From positions 62,001 to 126,000 of the forward strand of contig JAEKLQ010000022.1 of the NCBI GenBank assembly GCA_019509785.1: 64,000 bases of DNA, in the 5' to 3' direction. The stretch comes from Fibrobacterota bacterium. Its GTDB lineage: Bacteria; Fibrobacterota; Fibrobacteria; UBA11236. A model generated the notes under the pieces. The model made no database searches, had not been told where the DNA came from, and saw only the letters and a list, made by a program, of their open reading frames with translations. Made by a program: the position numbers and the translations under genes. Of this stretch, positions 17,729-47,239 are shown in pieces (position 1 is the stretch's first letter; the number at the start of each line of letters is the position of its first letter).

Positions 17729-18733
17729 TTGAACGAACTCAATTCATCCACGGAAATCCCCTCCTCCCTCGAAGACATGGGGATGGCCCCGGAAGAGAGA
17801 GCGACGGGCGAAGACGGAACTCCCGTCCGCGGGCCAAGCGTAAAGAAGACCCTGGCCCCGAAAAAGGAAAAGAAGAGCGGATCGGATCGGAACCTGCGTT
17901 TCCTAGGCGATGATTCGGGCCTGGCGACCTACCTGCGGGAGATCAGCCAATCCCAGAATCTCACTTTGGCGCAGGAGGCGGAACTGGCCCGGAATATCCG
18001 CGCCGGCGATAAGGACGCCCTGAACACCTTGGTGCAAGCCAACCTGAAATTCGTGGTGGCCGTGTGCCGCAATTACCAATACCAGGGCCTGCCGCTCGGC
18101 GATTTGATCAACGAGGGCAACCTCGGCCTCATCCGCGCCGCCAAGCGCTTCGACGAGACCATGAACTTCAAGTTCATCTCGTACGCGGTGTGGTGGATCC
18201 GCCAGGCCATCCTTTCGGCCCTGGCCGATCAATCGCGGGTCATCAACATCCCTCCCAGCCGCGTAGGCACCATCCACAAGATGGGCAAGACCAGCGTGAA
18301 GCTGGAACAGAAGCTGGGCCGCGCCCCGACCATTTCCGAATTGTCCGAGGAGATGGGCGTATCCATCAACGAAATCCACGAGAGCCTGCAATTGAGCTCG
18401 TCGCCGATGAGCCTGGACGCCCCGGTCAAGGACGGGGAGGACGGCCGCCTGGAGGACGTGCTCGAGGATCATAACGTGGATAGCCCCGACAAGAGCACGG
18501 TGGCCTACACGCTCCGCGAGGAGATGAAGGGCATCCTCTCCTCTTTGGATGAGCGCGAGGAAAAGGTGGTGCGCTTGTACTACGGCATCGGGCTGGATAC
18601 CACCTACACCCTCGAGGAGATCGCCCAACGCTTCAACCTGACGCGCGAGCGCGTGCGTCAAATCAAGGAGAAGGCCCTGAAGCGCCTGCGGCATCCGTCG
18701 CGGCTCCAGAAGCTGGAACGGTTCAAGGCGTAA
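17729..18733 (+). CDS. rpoD: RpoD/SigA-type primary-like RNA polymerase sigma factor
   Basis: A 334-residue sigma-70 factor. After a disordered charged leader of ~55 residues come region 1.2 (GLATYLREISQSQNLTLAQEAELARNIRAGD), region 2 with the core-binding and -10 recognition helix (NLKFVVAVCRNYQYQGLPLGDLINEGNLGLIRAAKRFDETMNFKFISYAVWWIRQAI), region 3 (RVGTIHKMGKTSVKLEQKLGRAPTISELSEEM) and region 4 with its helix-turn-helix (TLEEIAQRFNLTRERVRQIKEKALKRLRHP). There is no region 1.1 or large non-conserved insert; this compact build is normal for primary sigma factors of the Bacteroidota/Fibrobacterota group. TTG start with GAGGAG upstream. The REC gene begins 8 bp after the stop, so the two are co-transcribed. 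It may be the housekeeping sigma factor or a close group 2 relative. Confidence 0.92.
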   Translation: MNELNSSTEIPSSLEDMGMAPEERATGEDGTPVRGPSVKKTLAPKKEKKSGSDRNLRFLGDDSGLATYLREISQSQNLTLAQEAELARNIRAGDKDALNTLVQANLKFVVAVCRNYQYQGLPLGDLINEGNLGLIRAAKRFDETMNFKFISYAVWWIRQAILSALADQSRVINIPPSRVGTIHKMGKTSVKLEQKLGRAPTISELSEEMGVSINEIHESLQLSSSPMSLDAPVKDGEDGRLEDVLEDHNVDSPDKSTVAYTLREEMKGILSSLDEREEKVVRLYYGIGLDTTYTLEEIAQRFNLTRERVRQIKEKALKRLRHPSRLQKLERFKA

Positions 18734-40330: not shown

Positions 40331-41335
40331 TCAACCCGGCCCTGAACCCGCGGCGGCCTTACGCAAGCGATCCATGATGGCCGCCCCGAGACCCCGTTCC
40401 GGCACGGCTTCGGCCAGGATCAGATCCAAGCCTGCGGCATCCAGACGGTGCAGGCATGCGAACAGGCGGGCGGCGGCTTCGCGCAGATCGCCGTCAGGGG
40501 AAAGCGTTTCCGTCGCCGCATAGGGCCCATCCGGGGCGCGACGGAAGGCCAGGTAACCCAGGCGTAACGTGGCATCGGAGGGAATCTCTTCGCCCGCATG
40601 GATCCGCAAGGGGGTGCGCGGGGCATAATGGCCGGGGAGTTGGCCCGGGGCCTGCGGCCGGGCCGCCGCCGCGGGAGCCATGGCGATGGCGCCGATGGCC
40701 GCTTCGATGGCTTCGCGCGGCACGCCTCCCGCCCGCAGTAACACGGGAGTTTCCCCCGCCAGGGATACTATGGTCGACTCCACCCCCACCGTGCAAGGTC
40801 CGCCGTCGAGGATGAGATCGATGCCCGCCTCGCCGGCTTGGAAAGGGGCTTGAAAATGGGCCTGCACGTGGGCGGCCGTGGTGGGGCTCAGGCGTCCGAA
40901 GGGATTGGCGCTGGGGGCCGCCAGGGGGAAGCCCGCGGCGCGGATGAGCGCGAGCGCCACCGGATGGGCGGGCATACGCACCGCCACGGTGGGCAGGCCC
41001 GAGGTGGCCAGGTCCGGCACGTCGGAAGCCTTGGGCAGGACCAAGGTGAGAGGACCCGGCCAAAAGCGATCCATCAGGTCCGTGGCGCGCGGGTCGCGCC
41101 GCGCCTCCGGGGCGATCAGGGCTTCGAATTGGGACCTTTCCGCCACGTGGAGGATGAGGGGATCGAAGAATGGGCGGCGCTTGGCCTCGAAGATCTTGGC
41201 CAGCGCCAGGGGGTCATGCGCCTTGGCGCCCAGGCCGTAGACGGTTTCCGTGGGGAAGGCGACGAGCCCGCCCGCGCGCAGCGCATCGGCGGCGCGGCGT
41301 AGCGCATCGGGCGTCGCGGGGGAGAGGGGGATCAT
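40331..41335 (-). CDS. tsaC: L-threonylcarbamoyladenylate synthase (TsaC/Sua5 type)
   Basis: A 334-residue enzyme that makes threonylcarbamoyl-AMP from Thr, bicarbonate and ATP for the t6A37 modification of tRNAs. The YrdC/TsaC domain occupies residues 1-215: GGLVAFPTETVYGLGAKA, EAKRRPFFDPLILHV, FWPGPLTLVLPK, VAVRMPAHPVALALI, AAPSANPFGRLSPTTAAHV and VGVESTIVSL. The longer Sua5-type C-terminal domain is present (APGQLPGHYAPRTPLRI), so it is the long Sua5/YwlC form and not the short TsaC. It follows flgM on the same strand with a hairpin between them. Confidence 0.94.
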   Translation of the reverse strand: MIPLSPATPDALRRAADALRAGGLVAFPTETVYGLGAKAHDPLALAKIFEAKRRPFFDPLILHVAERSQFEALIAPEARRDPRATDLMDRFWPGPLTLVLPKASDVPDLATSGLPTVAVRMPAHPVALALIRAAGFPLAAPSANPFGRLSPTTAAHVQAHFQAPFQAGEAGIDLILDGGPCTVGVESTIVSLAGETPVLLRAGGVPREAIEAAIGAIAMAPAAAARPQAPGQLPGHYAPRTPLRIHAGEEIPSDATLRLGYLAFRRAPDGPYAATETLSPDGDLREAAARLFACLHRLDAAGLDLILAEAVPERGLGAAIMDRLRKAAAGSGPG

Positions 41336-41401
41336 CGCGGGAAAGATAGGAACCGCTTTTTCCGGGAAGGAGGCCGGCTGGGAAGCGGAGACGGAAACGC
41401 A

Positions 41402-41424
41402 AACGCCTCCGGGGAGGAGGCGTT
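41402..41424 (-). terminator. Probable terminator after flgM
   Basis: A perfect 9-bp stem AACGCCTCC/GGAGGCGTT (41402-41410 with 41416-41424) around a 5-nt loop, about 80 nt past the flgM stop on the minus strand and ~65 nt before the tsaC start. The minus-strand tail after the stem is T-rich but interrupted, so efficiency may be modest. It would separate flgM transcription from tsaC. Confidence 0.65.
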
Positions 41425-41501
41425 CGGTCTGAAAGTGCGGGTCCGTTACGCGGGTATGCCCAGATTATAGGACCCGGCCGCGCCGCAATGCAAGCGGGAC
41501 C

Positions 41502-41804
41502 CTACACGAGCATGTTGGCGATGCGCTCCGCGATGGTTTCCACCATCTTCGGGTCCATGTGGTAATTACCGGAGTTGACCAGCGATTTCAGCCTGCCAAC
41601 CTTAAGGTATTGCTCGTTTTCGTAGTCCGATCCGGATTCATGTCCGGCGAGCGCCTTGGCCGAATCCGAAAGATCGACCTCGTCGTGGGCTTCGGGCGCG
41701 GCCTTTTTGGCCTTGACCGCTTTGCCATCCTTGGGATCCTTGAGGCCGAGATCCCGTTGCGCCACCAGTCGGGCGACTTCGTTTACGATATCCGTGCTGT
41801 TCAT
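41502..41804 (-). CDS. flgM: FlgM-like anti-sigma-28 factor
   Basis: A 100-residue protein matching the FlgM family: DEVDLSDSAKALAG in the middle, then the sigma-binding C-terminal helices EQYLKVGRLKSLVNSGNYHMDPKMVETIAERIANML, a good match to the usual ...VARLKAAIASGxYxVDxxKIAxxLL. The N-terminal half is charged and Lys/Ala-rich, as in unstructured FlgM proteins that pass through the flagellar export channel. FlgM holds FliA (sigma-28) inactive until the hook is complete. A sigma-28-type promoter lies ~77 nt upstream, which is the usual autoregulatory arrangement. No other flagellar gene is in the window; the neighbouring upstream genes are the glycosyltransferases. Confidence 0.87.
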   Translation of the reverse strand: MNSTDIVNEVARLVAQRDLGLKDPKDGKAVKAKKAAPEAHDEVDLSDSAKALAGHESGSDYENEQYLKVGRLKSLVNSGNYHMDPKMVETIAERIANMLV

Positions 41805-41880
41805 ACTATACCTGCTTTTGCCTGTTTGGCTTCTAGATTAAGTCTAAGAAGTCATATTCCCCCATGGTGTTCCTACCCCT

Positions 41881-41909
41881 AATATCGACAAAGTTATGAA
41901 CGCACTTTA
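41881..41909 (-). promoter_or_regulatory. Sigma-28 (FliA/SigD) type promoter upstream of flgM
   Basis: On the minus strand the sequence reads TAAA, 16 nt, then GTCGATATT (TAAA at 41909-41906, GTCGATATT at 41889-41881). The accepted SigD/FliA pattern is TAAA, 14-16 nt, GCCGATAT/GCCGATAA, so the -35 is perfect and the -10 matches at 7 of 8 positions. The predicted start, near 41875, leaves a leader of ~70 nt before the flgM ATG at 41804. It overlaps no gene, since the preceding glycosyltransferase stops at 41991. Confidence 0.75.
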
Positions 41910-41990
41910 ACTCTGATTTAATCGCCATCCCGCGCCATTTCGTCATTGACGCAAACTTCGCAAACGGGAATGAGTCTAAACGCCGGCGGT

Positions 41991-44627
41991 TCAGCCGGAT
42001 AAGCCGTGGGATCGATAGAGCGCGGCCAACGCCGCTCCCGTTAGGTCCCGGCCTTCTTTGATCCCTAAGCCCGCCTTGAGCAGGGCCACGGCCAGATCGC
42101 GGCGTCCCTGATCGAACCAATATTGCCCCAGCCATTGCAGGGCCTGGATCTTGAGGAGCTGGAAGTCCACCGGCAGGAAAGTCCCTGCTTCTACGAGATC
42201 GAGAAGGCGTTCGTAGAAAGGCCTGGCCGAATCGGGGCGGCCCGCGGCAGCCTCGATTTGGGCCTTCACCAGCATGGCCTCGGGGAGCGGGGAAGCAACG
42301 GCCAGGGCGGGCGCCAATTCTCGCAGGGCCTCGGCATGCCGGCCCAGGGCGGCCAAGGATGCGGCGGCCTTGGCGGGCGCGCCGTCGCGCACGTGGGGGT
42401 CGGAGCCCGTCGCGGCGGCCAACGAGGCGGCCCGCCGGAACCACTCCACCGCGGCCAGGTGCTCGCCCAGGTCGGCGCAAGCGCAGCCGAGGGTGTATAG
42501 GGTAACCGGCGTGATACCCCGATCGGTCCCCACCTGGGCCTCGAGGATGGCCTTGTTGCGTTGCTGCTTGGCTTTGGCCAGGGCCGGGTCGGCGTAACCG
42601 GTGTGGAGGATCTTGGCGGCCAGGTATTCCACCGGGATGCCGGCGGCCTCGATGGCGGGCAGGATCTGCTCGTGGACGGGGGCCCGGAAGCGCAAGGTGG
42701 GGCGGTTGGGGAAGACGCGGATCTGGTTGAAGACGCTGCCGGTGAGGCCGCCATCGCGGCTGTTCTTCACCCTTAGCCCATAGGCCTTGGGCGCGAGGTC
42801 CGGATCGCCATCGGCGAGGGATCGGATGGCCCGCTTATCCTCTTCCAGGAGTCGATCGTCGGCGTCCAACCAGAGGATCCACCGGCCGGTGGCGGCGTCC
42901 AGGGAGAGGTTGCGCGCGCGACTGAAATCGCCCGTCCAATCGGATTGGATCAATTTCGCGCCGAAGCGTCGGGCGATGTCCTGGGTCCCGTCGTCGGATC
43001 CGGTATCCACGATGATGGTTTCGCCGGCGAGGCCGCGCACCGATTCCAGGCAGGCAGGCAGGTTCTCCCGTTCGTTCTTCACGATCATGCATAGGCTTAA
43101 CGCGGGACGCGTTGAAGCCGGGGAGAGGTCTTCCCATTCCGGCAGGCGGCGCTGGGGAAACAGGGCCCGGGCGGCCGCCAAAGCGTCGCGGAAATCCTCG
43201 CGCCGATCCAGTTTGCGCAGCAGGACCAGGCGTTGCGCGTGCAAATCCGGGACCGCGGTGGGATTGAGCAGGATGGCCTTGGCCCAGCATTTCTCGGCGG
43301 CCTCGGTTTCGCCCTGCGCCAATTTGCATTTGCCCAGCAGTTGCCAAGCCTCCACCACTTGAGGATGCCCCGCGAGCAAGGCCTCAAGCAATTTCCGGGC
43401 GGCCGCCATCTCGCGCCGTTCGAAGGCGAACTGGGCCAGGTAATAGCGGCTATAGATCTGGATCAGATCGTACTGGTTGCTGGTGGTGGTGAAGCTTACC
43501 GGCATGGAGACCAGCTTGGCGTAGAGGGGCTCGGCGTCGCGCGGGCGGCCCATCTCCATCAGGCATTGCGCTTTGTGGAAATAGGCCTCGTGCTTATCGG
43601 GCTGAAGGGCGATGGTCTTGTCGAACCAGCCCAGCGCTTCTTCGCGGCGGCCCAGGCGCTGGTATCCCTGCCCTATGCAAGAGGGCAGTTCCCGGTAGAT
43701 GTCGCGGTTGATGGTCTCGCAATCCGGCATGGCCATGGTCCGCTGATAGGCTTCGATCCCCTTCTCGAACTCGCCGAGGATGTAGTACGAATCGCCGATG
43801 GCCATGGCCAGGGAAGGCTCGCGCGCCACGCGCGCGGGATCCTCTTGCAAGAGGAGCAGGTTGCGGAGGGCTTTCTTCTTCTTGAGTTCCGGATCTTCGT
43901 AGCCGGTGTGGTGCACGGTGGTTTCGGTCCAGAAGGTATGCAATCCCAGCAGGGCCACCGCGTGCAACAACTGCTCGTGGACTTGATAGCGGAAGCGCAA
44001 GGCGGGATGGTTGGGGAACATGCGCAATTGCATGAAGCGACCGCCGATGGGAAGGCCCCCCTGCGTATTGATCACCTGGAAGCCGAAGGCGCGGTCCATG
44101 GGGGCGGTCTTGAGCTTGCGGAAGTTCTCCAACTGATCGGCGGGAATGCGATCGTCCGCGTCCATCCATAGGATCCACGCGCTGCGGGCCGTTTCGATGG
44201 AACGGTTGCGGGCCCAGGCGAAATCGTTCCGCCACTCGCCCTGGATCCAACGCACCCCGAGGGAATCCAGGATGGCCTGGGTCCCGTCGGTGGAACCGGT
44301 ATCGTAGACAAGGATTTCATCGGCGATGGGCCGGAAGCTTTCCACCGCGTCCCGGATGTTCTTGGCCTCGTCCTTGACGATCATGGCGACGGTCAGGGTC
44401 CCGGGAGGCCATGGGGTTTTCAAGACGCCGCGGATGGTGCCGAACCGCTTGGCCATTTCCGCGGCGGGCATATCGTCGGGAAGGCCCGCCCAATCGAGGG
44501 ATGGCGCCTTCGGGGCGGGCGCCTGAGAGGCGGGCGCCTGGGAGGCGGGCGCCTGGGAGGCGGGCGCCTGGGAGGCGGGGATGGGATCCCTTTCCTTCCG
44601 CTTGGCTTTCTTGCCGGCTTTGGACAT
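41991..44627 (-). CDS. Tandem GT2-TPR glycosyltransferase
   Basis: An 878-residue cytoplasmic protein with two GT-A family-2 domains and helical repeats. After a basic N-terminus and four PASQA repeats comes GT2 domain 1 (residues ~75-280): LTVAMIVKDEAKNIRDAVESF, YDTGSTDGTQ, WILWMDADDRI (DxD) and RYQVHEQL. TPR units follow at ~300-500 (GDSYYILGEFEKGIEAYQR, LGRREEALGWFDKTIALQPD). GT2 domain 2 is at ~510-700: LSLCMIVKNERENLPACLESV, VDTGSDDGTQ, WILWLDADDRL, APVHEQILP. The C-terminal ~170 residues are TPR-like. The K-N/D-E, DTGSxDG and DADDR set defines the SunS-like/Geobacter-type branch. Third glycosyltransferase of the operon. Start at 44627, with a distant GAGGGAG; a 41-codon longer frame overlaps the neighbouring gene. 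The donor sugar is unknown. Confidence 0.88.
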   Translation of the reverse strand: MSKAGKKAKRKERDPIPASQAPASQAPASQAPASQAPAPKAPSLDWAGLPDDMPAAEMAKRFGTIRGVLKTPWPPGTLTVAMIVKDEAKNIRDAVESFRPIADEILVYDTGSTDGTQAILDSLGVRWIQGEWRNDFAWARNRSIETARSAWILWMDADDRIPADQLENFRKLKTAPMDRAFGFQVINTQGGLPIGGRFMQLRMFPNHPALRFRYQVHEQLLHAVALLGLHTFWTETTVHHTGYEDPELKKKKALRNLLLLQEDPARVAREPSLAMAIGDSYYILGEFEKGIEAYQRTMAMPDCETINRDIYRELPSCIGQGYQRLGRREEALGWFDKTIALQPDKHEAYFHKAQCLMEMGRPRDAEPLYAKLVSMPVSFTTTSNQYDLIQIYSRYYLAQFAFERREMAAARKLLEALLAGHPQVVEAWQLLGKCKLAQGETEAAEKCWAKAILLNPTAVPDLHAQRLVLLRKLDRREDFRDALAAARALFPQRRLPEWEDLSPASTRPALSLCMIVKNERENLPACLESVRGLAGETIIVDTGSDDGTQDIARRFGAKLIQSDWTGDFSRARNLSLDAATGRWILWLDADDRLLEEDKRAIRSLADGDPDLAPKAYGLRVKNSRDGGLTGSVFNQIRVFPNRPTLRFRAPVHEQILPAIEAAGIPVEYLAAKILHTGYADPALAKAKQQRNKAILEAQVGTDRGITPVTLYTLGCACADLGEHLAAVEWFRRAASLAAATGSDPHVRDGAPAKAAASLAALGRHAEALRELAPALAVASPLPEAMLVKAQIEAAAGRPDSARPFYERLLDLVEAGTFLPVDFQLLKIQALQWLGQYWFDQGRRDLAVALLKAGLGIKEGRDLTGAALAALYRSHGLSG
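44516..44575. repeat. Four tandem copies of a 15-bp unit inside a glycosyltransferase gene
   Basis: The unit CGGGCGCCTGGGAGG occurs four times head to tail (44516-44530, 44531-44545, 44546-44560, 44561-44575); only the first copy has a single difference (GAGAGG for GGGAGG). It keeps the reading frame and encodes the PASQA repeats near the N-terminus of the minus-strand glycosyltransferase. The near-perfect identity suggests recent expansion by slippage. Confidence 0.93.
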
Positions 44628-44650
44628 AGTCGTTCGCGCTCCCTCAGAGC

Positions 44651-47239
44651 CTAGGCCGCGCCCTGGCCGTATCCCAAGGCCTCCATCTGGCGCAGGAAGT
44701 CCCGCATCGTTTCCGACGGGCGGGCCATCGCCTTGAGATCGGCGTAGCATTTGGCGTAGAGCTTATTATGGTTCACGAATTCGGAGAAGTAAACCAGCAG
44801 GGTGGGATCCTCCGGGAATTTGCGCAACGCTTCGCGGTAGTTGGCGTAGATCTCTTCCACCGGGCGGCCGGCAGACTCGGCGCATTTTCCGCGAAAGGCT
44901 TCCAACACCCCGGATCGCAGCCGGAGGAACGGGCGGGATTCGAACAAGGCGAGGACGTCGCGATGCTTGCCCCTCTCGTACAAGGATTCCAGCAGGTCTT
45001 CCCATAAGCCTACGTCCCCGGGAGCCAACGCCAGGTAGGCCCGCGCATAGCCCTCCGCTTCGGCATCGCAGTCGGTGGCTTTGAAGAAATCCCAGGGTAC
45101 GCGCGGATCCAAGGGGAAGTCGCGCAGCCCGCCGGCGATCAGCTCGCGCAGGGCTTCGCGCGCGCGGGGCGCTTTGCCGGGGCCGAAGAGTTGCAGTTCG
45201 CAGAGAACGGCCAGGGCCAGGGAATTCCGGCGCACCGTATAGGCATCGGTGGCGACCCGGCCCACGGTTACGGGCCGATCCAGGGCCCCATACAGGAATT
45301 CCAGGGCTCCGCGCAGATTGTTGGCCGCCAGGGCCCGTTTGCCCAGCCAGTACAAGGGTTTGGGGTCGGAGGCGTCCCAGCGCGCGGCCAGACGGAACCA
45401 TTCCTCCGCTTCCGCATCGCGCTCCTGCTTGGCGAAAGTCTCGGCGAGAAAAGCCGGGTAATGCCGGAGCGCTTCGTCCGCGGGGGCATCGCCCAGCGCG
45501 CGGGGATCGCGCCCGGGCAATAGCGACAGGTAGGCTTCGGTGGCCCCGGCGTATTCCCCGCTTTGGTACAGGCAATTGCCGTATTCCATGATCACTACCG
45601 GATCGGCCGGGAATTCCTGGCGCTCCTTTTCCAGCAAAGCGCGGTTGCGCTTCAGCTTGGCGCCGCGCTTGGCCGGCGTATCGTACCCCAGGTGCAGGAT
45701 TTCCAGATCGGTCGCGCCGATGGGCACCTTCAGGCGGCCCAGGGAAGTCCCGAGTTGTTCATGGATGCGGCCTTCGAAAGCGGCGCCCAGATGGTTGGGG
45801 AACAAGCGGATCTGCCGGAAGCATTCGCCGCGGGAATTCTCCCGCGGGCTCCGCACCACGAAGCGGTAAGCCCGCTTGGGGCCGTCCAGCAAGGGCGCCA
45901 GGGCTTCCCAGAAATCCTCGTCCACGCGGTCGTCGGCGTCGAGCCACAATATCCAGCCTCGGGTGGCCGCGGCCAAGGAAACGTTGCGGGCCGCCGAGAA
46001 ATCGTCGCACCAGGAAAATTGGCGCGCCTGTATGCCCGCCTCCTGCAAGGCCTCCACCGTGCCGTCGGTCGAACCCGTATCCACGACGATCCATTCCGCG
46101 CGGCCCAAGGGCAGGCAAGCCAGCAGGCCCGGCAGATTGGCGGCTTCGTCCTTCAGGATCGAGCAGATGGACAGGTCCAGGCGCGGCCCGCCGCCTCCGC
46201 CTCCCGGCGGGGCCAAAGGATCTTCCGGTGGAGGCGACCCGCGTTCCGGGTCATCGCCTTCGCGCGTGGTTTCCAAGAGGGTAGCGGACGCGTTACGTAT
46301 GCCTTCCCAGTCGAAAGGCACGCCGCCGTATTCCGGCCCGGCGTTCAGGCACCGGGTCCATAACGAACGGGCTTCGGCCTTGAGGCCGGTGAGCCAAAGG
46401 GCTTTGCCGCATTCGAGTAGCCAAGGCGCATGCGCCGACCCACGCGGGCAGGCCAGGAAGGCTTCCAGAGCTTCGGCTGGCCGATCCTGGAAGCAAAGGG
46501 ATTGGCCCAGCCCCACGTAGGCGGCCAGCAGGACGTCATGGGTGGCGGGGTGCGCGCTTGCTATAGCCCGCCGAAACGAGATCGCGGCGTCCGCCCAGCC
46601 TTTCTCGGCCATCCGCATGCGGCCTTGGGCCAGCCATAAGGCCGCCGAGGCATCCGGGGCCATCAGCGCTTTTTCCAAAAGGGCGCGGTTGCGGGCGCGC
46701 TTGCGTTCCACGGCGGCCATGTCCCGGTACCCGGTGTGCAGGATTTCCGCGGGCGCGGCGCGCACGGTCAGCCCGGCTTCCGCCACGGCTTCGCCCAAGG
46801 TCTCGTGCACGGGATTGCGGAAGCCCAGGCTTTTGCCGTTGGGTACGAGGCGGATTTGCGACCAGGTGGTTTCGGCGCCGTCCGGCCCGGGGGATCGCAC
46901 GCGAAAGGCGTAGGCCTCGGAGTGGTCCAAGAGCGGCAGGCGGGTCGCGAGCCAGTCCCGTGCTTCCGGCGTCAGTTCGTCATCAGCGTCCAGCCACAGG
47001 ATCCATTCGCCCCGGGCCAGCGAAAGCGAATGGTTGCGCGCGGCGGAGAAATCGCCCGTCCAGGGGAAATCGTGGACCTCGGCGCCGTAGCCTCGGGCGA
47101 CTTCCCGCGTGCCATCGCGGCTCCCGGTATCGACCAGGATGCGCTGGGCCGATAGCCCGTCGAGGGACCGGAACAATGACGGCAAGTTCCGTTCCTCATC
47201 GCGGGCGATGACGGCGACGGATAGCCGCGGGTGGTTCAA
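44651..47239 (-). CDS. Tandem GT2-TPR glycosyltransferase, coupled to the 1498-residue protein
   Basis: An 862-residue protein. GT2 domain 1 starts at once (LSVAVIARDEERNLPSLFRSL, VDTGSRDGTRE, WILWLDADDEL, NPVHETLG). TPR-like helices follow (GRMRMAEKGWADAAISFRRAIA), a Pro/Gly linker, then GT2 domain 2 at ~350-550 (LSICSILKDEAANLPGLLACL, VDTGSTDGTVE, WILWLDADDRV, GRIHEQLG). The rest is a long TPR array (GNCLYQSGEYAGATEAYL, WDASDPKPLYWLGKRALAANN). I place the start at the TTG (47239) that overlaps the preceding gene's TGA in TTGA, with GAAGG upstream: the family similarity begins exactly there, whereas the open frame that continues to 47833 is antiparallel nonsense in Arg/Gly-rich sequence. Second of three glycosyltransferases, translationally coupled. 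Confidence 0.88.
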   Translation of the reverse strand: MNHPRLSVAVIARDEERNLPSLFRSLDGLSAQRILVDTGSRDGTREVARGYGAEVHDFPWTGDFSAARNHSLSLARGEWILWLDADDELTPEARDWLATRLPLLDHSEAYAFRVRSPGPDGAETTWSQIRLVPNGKSLGFRNPVHETLGEAVAEAGLTVRAAPAEILHTGYRDMAAVERKRARNRALLEKALMAPDASAALWLAQGRMRMAEKGWADAAISFRRAIASAHPATHDVLLAAYVGLGQSLCFQDRPAEALEAFLACPRGSAHAPWLLECGKALWLTGLKAEARSLWTRCLNAGPEYGGVPFDWEGIRNASATLLETTREGDDPERGSPPPEDPLAPPGGGGGGPRLDLSICSILKDEAANLPGLLACLPLGRAEWIVVDTGSTDGTVEALQEAGIQARQFSWCDDFSAARNVSLAAATRGWILWLDADDRVDEDFWEALAPLLDGPKRAYRFVVRSPRENSRGECFRQIRLFPNHLGAAFEGRIHEQLGTSLGRLKVPIGATDLEILHLGYDTPAKRGAKLKRNRALLEKERQEFPADPVVIMEYGNCLYQSGEYAGATEAYLSLLPGRDPRALGDAPADEALRHYPAFLAETFAKQERDAEAEEWFRLAARWDASDPKPLYWLGKRALAANNLRGALEFLYGALDRPVTVGRVATDAYTVRRNSLALAVLCELQLFGPGKAPRAREALRELIAGGLRDFPLDPRVPWDFFKATDCDAEAEGYARAYLALAPGDVGLWEDLLESLYERGKHRDVLALFESRPFLRLRSGVLEAFRGKCAESAGRPVEEIYANYREALRKFPEDPTLLVYFSEFVNHNKLYAKCYADLKAMARPSETMRDFLRQMEALGYGQGAA

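Follow-up and report, generated by a model that had tools for sequence, protein, structure and literature searches.

FlgM normally blocks the flagellar sigma factor, and a sigma-28 promoter before flgM makes the textbook feedback loop. In Salmonella and E. coli the gene sits within the flgAMN operon. The part of the Salmonella literature that was available to us describes FliA as a positive regulator of flgM, and FlgM as an exported protein that binds FliA; it also gives the Salmonella and E. coli gene an additional class 2 promoter (PMC5809477). Two FlgM proteins in one cell have been described for dual-flagellum bacteria, namely FlgM and FlgML/LfgM in Plesiomonas and Vibrio, and flgM2 in P. 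fluorescens F113; in the available text of these papers each FlgM comes with its own flagellar system (PMC4481668, PMC3986905). Our literature searches, whose coverage leaves subscription papers largely outside, found no published case in which one FliA goes with two FlgM types and no paper on FlgM in the Fibrobacterota, and a search joining FlgM with CsrA leaders likewise gave no such case. As the published two-FlgM cases that we found belong to dual flagellar systems, finding two FlgM types beside just one FliA is less common.

The locus described here lies in a 64,000-nucleotide stretch (the window) of a Fibrobacterota MAG. As in the Salmonella and E. coli circuit, an anti-sigma-28 gene stands under a sigma-28 promoter. 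However, the genome has two FlgM types, and the window gene, which we call flgM-B, stands by itself, with a GT2 gene on one side and tsaC on the other. The two FlgM proteins per cell recall the dual-flagellum bacteria, but here they accompany one FliA and one FlhA (genomes G000 to G003 of the genus, G002 being without a FliA match). The features of the locus, in window coordinates, are as follows.

41991-44750, minus strand: two-domain GT2/TPR glycosyltransferase gene, the upstream neighbour of flgM-B
41881..41909, minus strand: predicted sigma-28 (FliA) promoter, with -35 box TAAA at 41906-41909, an N16 spacer and -10 box GTCGATATT at 41881-41889 (exact match, genus conservation, phylum enrichment)
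41805..41880, minus strand: untranslated leader of flgM-B, reaching from the -10 box to the ATG, its start placed from the promoter
41859..41863, minus strand: purine run GGGGG, separated from the ATG of the leader element by exactly 3 nt; Shine-Dalgarno-like, or the 5' arm of a weak 5-bp hairpin with CTTCY
41844..41855, minus strand: leader element ATGACTTCTTAG, ATG-ACT-TCY-TAR in six genomes, recognised by block conservation
41502..41804, minus strand: flgM-B, 100 aa, second clade of the FlgM family (sub-threshold to Pfam FlgM, clade profile matching 1rp3_B, five genus orthologues)
41402..41424, minus strand: perfect 9-bp inverted repeat 3' of flgM-B, read by eye; a possible weak terminator with no T run, not called by a terminator scan
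40331-41335: tsaC/Sua5, the downstream neighbour of flgM-B

The gene order GT2 - flgM-B - tsaC is found in the window and in five relatives, although in G001 the contig starts within the GT2 gene (by eye).

A sequence-only reading of the window had proposed a sigma-28-type promoter about 77 nt before flgM, fitting the consensus at 11 of 12 positions. The string TAAAGTGCGTTCATAACTTTGTCGATATT is present exactly at 41881-41909 on the minus strand, and it is the sole match in the 64-kb window to TAAA-N16-GYCGATAWT with up to two mismatches. It falls in the 186-nt gap that separates the GT2/TPR gene from the 100-aa ORF, all on the same strand, and GTCGATAT indeed ends 77 nt before the ATG of flgM. 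The position and type of motif were therefore right, but the fit was not: scored against TAAA plus GCCGATAA the site agrees at 10 of 12 positions, the earlier count having probably used a -10 consensus with a terminal T. The E. coli FliA consensus, as given in the available part of PMC2859248, is TAAAGTTT-n11-GCCGATAA, which places N15 between TAAA and the -10 box. The window site thus has the boxes of a FliA promoter with a spacer one base longer, and the same N16 spacing was found again before a flagellin gene and fliD in a pattern scan of the genome. Judging from the promoter, the flgM-B transcript would start about 7 nt into the leader, 3' of the -10 box.

The motif by itself proves little: among 5000 dinucleotide shuffles of the 200 nt preceding flgM-B, 140 score at least 10, and TAAA-N14-17-SYCGATAW has 12 matches in the whole genome against nine for a reversed control. 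Both figures speak for a chance match, with flgM-B transcribed from another promoter. We regard this as very improbable: no sigma-70-type promoter was found in a scan of 41300-42050, and it is conservation and position, rather than the string, that make the sigma-28 promoter convincing. All six members of the genus have AGTTAAAGT and TGTCGATA in their leaders at one and the same spacing; the G002 leader reads GTTAAAGTA after the -35 box with both boxes intact. Further upstream of the promoter only 8 of 110 aligned columns are invariant among the six genomes.

The pattern extends to the phylum. We sampled 167 genomes, which gave 88 FlgM-family rows. One of these (G100:C107:13-177) has just 12 bases upstream and was left out, so that 87 were read for sites, 84 of them with a full 200 nt upstream. 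Among these 84 genes a site scoring at least 10 precedes 79, and one scoring at least 11 precedes 46. The same threshold of 10 was reached in 7/84 antisense stretches, 1/80 downstream stretches, 2/84 of the first 200 nt of the gene, 2/80 of the stretches from -600 to -400, and 57/1680 shuffles. Several start codons were set mechanically and some are too late (e.g. G101_C92 and G111_C33), therefore distances from site to start are upper values.

The identity of the gene is less simple than its promoter. The window protein scores 21.9 bits with PF04316 (cut-off 25) and 27.9 bits with NCBIfam TIGR03824 (cut-off 40.75), hence curated HMMs do not place it in the family on its own. Orthologues from the genus, one in each of five further genomes and 52-65% identical to it, all reach the Pfam cut-off at 25.0 to 31.5 bits, while 8 of 20 FlgM-B members have no Pfam FlgM match at E 0.01. 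A profile built solely from 20 of the 25 FlgM-B proteins nevertheless finds FlgM 1rp3_B, an anti-sigma factor of solved structure, at E 3.9e-6, so FlgM-B is FlgM by homology and not by name alone; it also matches 9wsf_B (E 9.2e-5). Against a profile of 21 of the 51 FlgM-A proteins, 92 columns are aligned with 97.2% probability. The features LS..A and SGNY.MD...IA..I are retained, and the conserved region aligns with structurally characterised FlgM. A structure model of FlgM-B (mean pLDDT 70, pTM 0.32; helices at 3-17, 47-53, 60-77 and 85-99) is too weak for a fold search, yet compatible with a partly disordered FlgM.

A canonical-type FlgM (FlgM-A) is coded on another contig (C34:76249) and, at 36.7 bits, is above the Pfam cut-off. 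Both genes belong to the FlgM family and each has a candidate sigma-28 promoter, that of flgM-A being TTAA-N16-TCCGATAA about 22 nt from the start, which scores 10 as TAAG-N15. On the FlgM-A side, however, the clade is a separate one, the leader is short and the neighbours are different. Read by eye in L040:9721-12432 (plus strand), flgM-A does not belong to a flgK/flgN cluster: it follows sensor-kinase-like and STAS-like genes, and after it come a pair of SpoVG-like genes and a flagellin of unusual type.

A tree of 85 FlgM rows resolves 51 into group A (canonical), 25 into group B (with the window gene) and nine into group C. With few alignment columns the deep forks are moderately supported, and the A/B backbone stands at a modest 94/95 on 109 columns. 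The window gene is a member of a separate paralogous clade and is not the canonical flgM on this tree. Of the 23 genomes of the class that carry FlgM, 21 have group B, as does one genome from outside the class. A and B are found together in 19 of 53 FlgM-bearing genomes, a count in which two fragments outside the tree (G104_C134_9 and G101_C34_2452) were taken as type A by default; the first of these resembles type B by eye. The sequence-only reading had seen here the standard late-flagellar circuit. Given a sub-cut-off protein in a separate clade, and a canonical FlgM elsewhere, this was half the story: the sigma-28 promoter stands, the standard flgM does not.

That reading also held that the organism is probably motile at some stage. 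We looked for an absence of fliA and of flagellar genes, and found fliA, flhA, flagellins and fliD. FliA is single-copy (C65:20312, 271.7 bits, cut-off 189.6) with Pfam regions 2, 3 and 4, and its gene adjoins others that read as fliR, flhB, flhA and flhF. FlhA was confirmed at 891.8 bits, placing FliA and the export apparatus of the checkpoint in the same genome. There are also six Flagellin_N genes and a FliD. Four of the 12 genome-wide pattern matches lie 12-77 nt before flagellar genes, namely flgM-B, two flagellins and fliD. The suggestion that fliC and fliD homologues would carry the same motif was thus correct for fliD and two of the six Flagellin_N genes; the other four, one of them FlgL-like, have no match to TAAA-N14-17-SYCGATAW. 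Together, these genes and the motif before fliD and the two flagellins support motility.

FliA is above the cut-off in 57 of the 167 phylum genomes, and never twice among the matches listed. FlgM and FliA occur together in 48 genomes, FlgM without FliA in five, FliA without FlgM in nine, and neither in 105 (p 8e-27). In G002, which has both FlgMs, no FliA match was found; its FlhA is 2061 bases away from the end of a contig, and an assembly gap is therefore the likely cause. The idea that the second FlgM goes with a flagellar system of its own was considered and rejected, as G000 has one FliA and one FlhA. FlhA is likewise single in G001 to G003, but G004 has two copies and G005 three of full length. 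As a side observation, the extra full-length FlhA-like genes (G004:C73:185784, G005:C218:8 and G005:C250:33274) score about 700 bits, compared with about 890 for the main copies, and may belong, in some species, to an additional flagellar apparatus or a related export system. Relatives retrieved with the protein are deposited as Fibrobacteres/Fibrobacteria MAGs. Among the members listed of the large genus g4 there are no FlgM or FliA matches. The absence from g4 agrees with a 2016 study whose available text describes flagellar motility as ancestral in the Fibrobacterota and lost in the Fibrobacteraceae (PMC4704652).

As we infer it from the conservation of the promoter, FlgM membership, the one FliA, the export genes and the two FlgM types, the circuit would run as follows. 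Being under a FliA promoter, flgM-B would be transcribed by sigma-28 RNA polymerase as a late flagellar gene, only once sigma-28 is active. FlgM-B would bind the only FliA of the genome, alongside FlgM-A, whose gene lies elsewhere and has a candidate sigma-28 promoter too. Flagellar export would lower both FlgM-A and FlgM-B and so free FliA, which would make FlgM-B a second negative-feedback brake on sigma-28. We consider it probable that the site at 41881-41909 is a real FliA promoter and that flgM-B is a second sigma-28-controlled, FliA-binding and export-cleared brake.

A different fate for FlgM-B seems rather unlikely to us but has several points in its favour. The promoter could be sigma-28-dependent while the protein is no FliA inhibitor, and instead stabilises FliA, acts as an export chaperone or binds an RpoD-like sigma factor. 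The deep, if modestly supported, separation of FlgM-B from FlgM-A fits such a divergence, as do the scores of the window protein below both curated cut-offs and the many RpoD-type sigma factors among the 16 sigma rows of the genome. There is also a precedent, as the FlgM of Treponema denticola stabilises FliA according to the available part of a review (PMC12655853). Against this, FlgM-B keeps the two sequence features of the family and its alignment with characterised FlgM, and the distribution of FlgM-family genes follows that of FliA among the genomes. In itself the promoter is nothing unusual, and confirms that the FliA-FlgM loop is in use throughout the flagellated Fibrobacterota. If both FlgMs bind FliA, the question of why one sigma factor has two brakes becomes testable, as does the possibility that their leaders let different signals release the late flagellar genes.

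The leader of flgM-B contains a conserved element, ATGACTTCYTAR, with two variable bases. A 12-column block, TATGACTTCYTA, starts one base before the element and is invariant in 11 of its 12 columns among the six genomes, versus the 8 of 110 upstream of the promoter. Read as a three-codon ORF, both variable bases of ATG-ACT-TCY-TAR are synonymous (Ser TCC/TCT and stop TAG/TAA) and the stop codon closes the block; in all six genus members a purine-rich run is found 3 nt before the ATG. The Thr codon ACT never varies, however, an indication that the nucleotides matter more than the peptide. The element is possibly a mini-ORF (M-T-S-stop), or else a binding or pairing site. With six sequences from one genus it is a lead only.

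Several other forms of this element were rejected. GGGGG can pair with CUUCY (5 pairs, one changed on both sides), but at -2.49 kcal/mol the hairpin is too weak to be preferred over a mini-ORF or pairing site. A longer ORF in the frame TAT-GAC-TTC-YTA does not keep its start codon in all six genomes, and a family of such elements is not apparent, the motif with its G run having one exact site in the genome. CsrA is present in the source genome, but ANGGAN is absent from all six leaders and two have no GGA in the conserved block, therefore control by CsrA is not indicated.

Could flgM-B be controlled mainly after transcription, through the leader element, by a mini-ORF, a small RNA or an RNA-binding protein? 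The sigma-28 promoter would then set just the time window, which is compatible with the two-brake circuit preferred here. The invariant columns, the synonymous changes and the fixed spacing of the purine run all speak for it, and small RNAs are known to target the flgM mRNA in C. jejuni (PMC11187230) and E. coli (PMC7549644), according to the available parts of these papers. On the other hand, the element is absent from the other FlgM-B leaders examined, the hairpin is weak and CsrA is unsupported, and we think it unlikely that control lies mainly there.

The leaders of FlgM-C genes are of another kind. Seven of the nine group C rows have leaders of 92-138 nt; the remaining two are short and outside the count. 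Just upstream of the starts, these seven have a sigma-28-type site and then repeats.

L121:974-1089, plus strand: FlgM-C leader
L122:1023-1114, plus strand: FlgM-C leader
L123:923-1060, plus strand: FlgM-C leader
L137:959-1083, plus strand: FlgM-C leader
L138:989-1120, minus strand: FlgM-C leader
L144:944-1067, plus strand: FlgM-C leader
L146:906-1031, plus strand: FlgM-C leader

Each contains two to three copies of CCARGGANGG, in many cases bordered by TTCC/GGAA, as CsrA hairpins are, and four to eight ANGGAN sites (shuffle p from 0/2000 to 0.016). ANGGAN as a hexaloop is a published CsrA/RsmE site (PMC7652899, available part), and CsrA is present in all seven genomes. In some single-sequence folds, not every ANGGAN site forms its own hairpin.

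We tentatively raise the possibility of a two-brake checkpoint in the Fibrobacterota, with one sigma-28 and at least two sigma-28-controlled FlgMs, in which the lineage-specific leader of the second brake might be tuned post-transcriptionally (mini-ORF-like here, tandem CsrA-like in FlgM-C).

Some minor observations remain. G010, an order-level relative that is 79% complete, has three FlgM-B genes (L034, L037 and L095), each with a sigma-28-like site, and no FlgM-A row among its FlgM-family matches. RpoD-like paralogues are many (the window copy and L003-L009), and the 16 sigma rows listed include FliA and partial matches. One RpoD-like sigma factor gene is preceded at 21 nt by TAAA-N17-CCCGATAA (L020:1501-1529, minus strand), which may be chance. 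The copy in the window (17729-18733, plus strand) is an RpoD-type sigma factor with regions 1.2, 2, 3 and 4.
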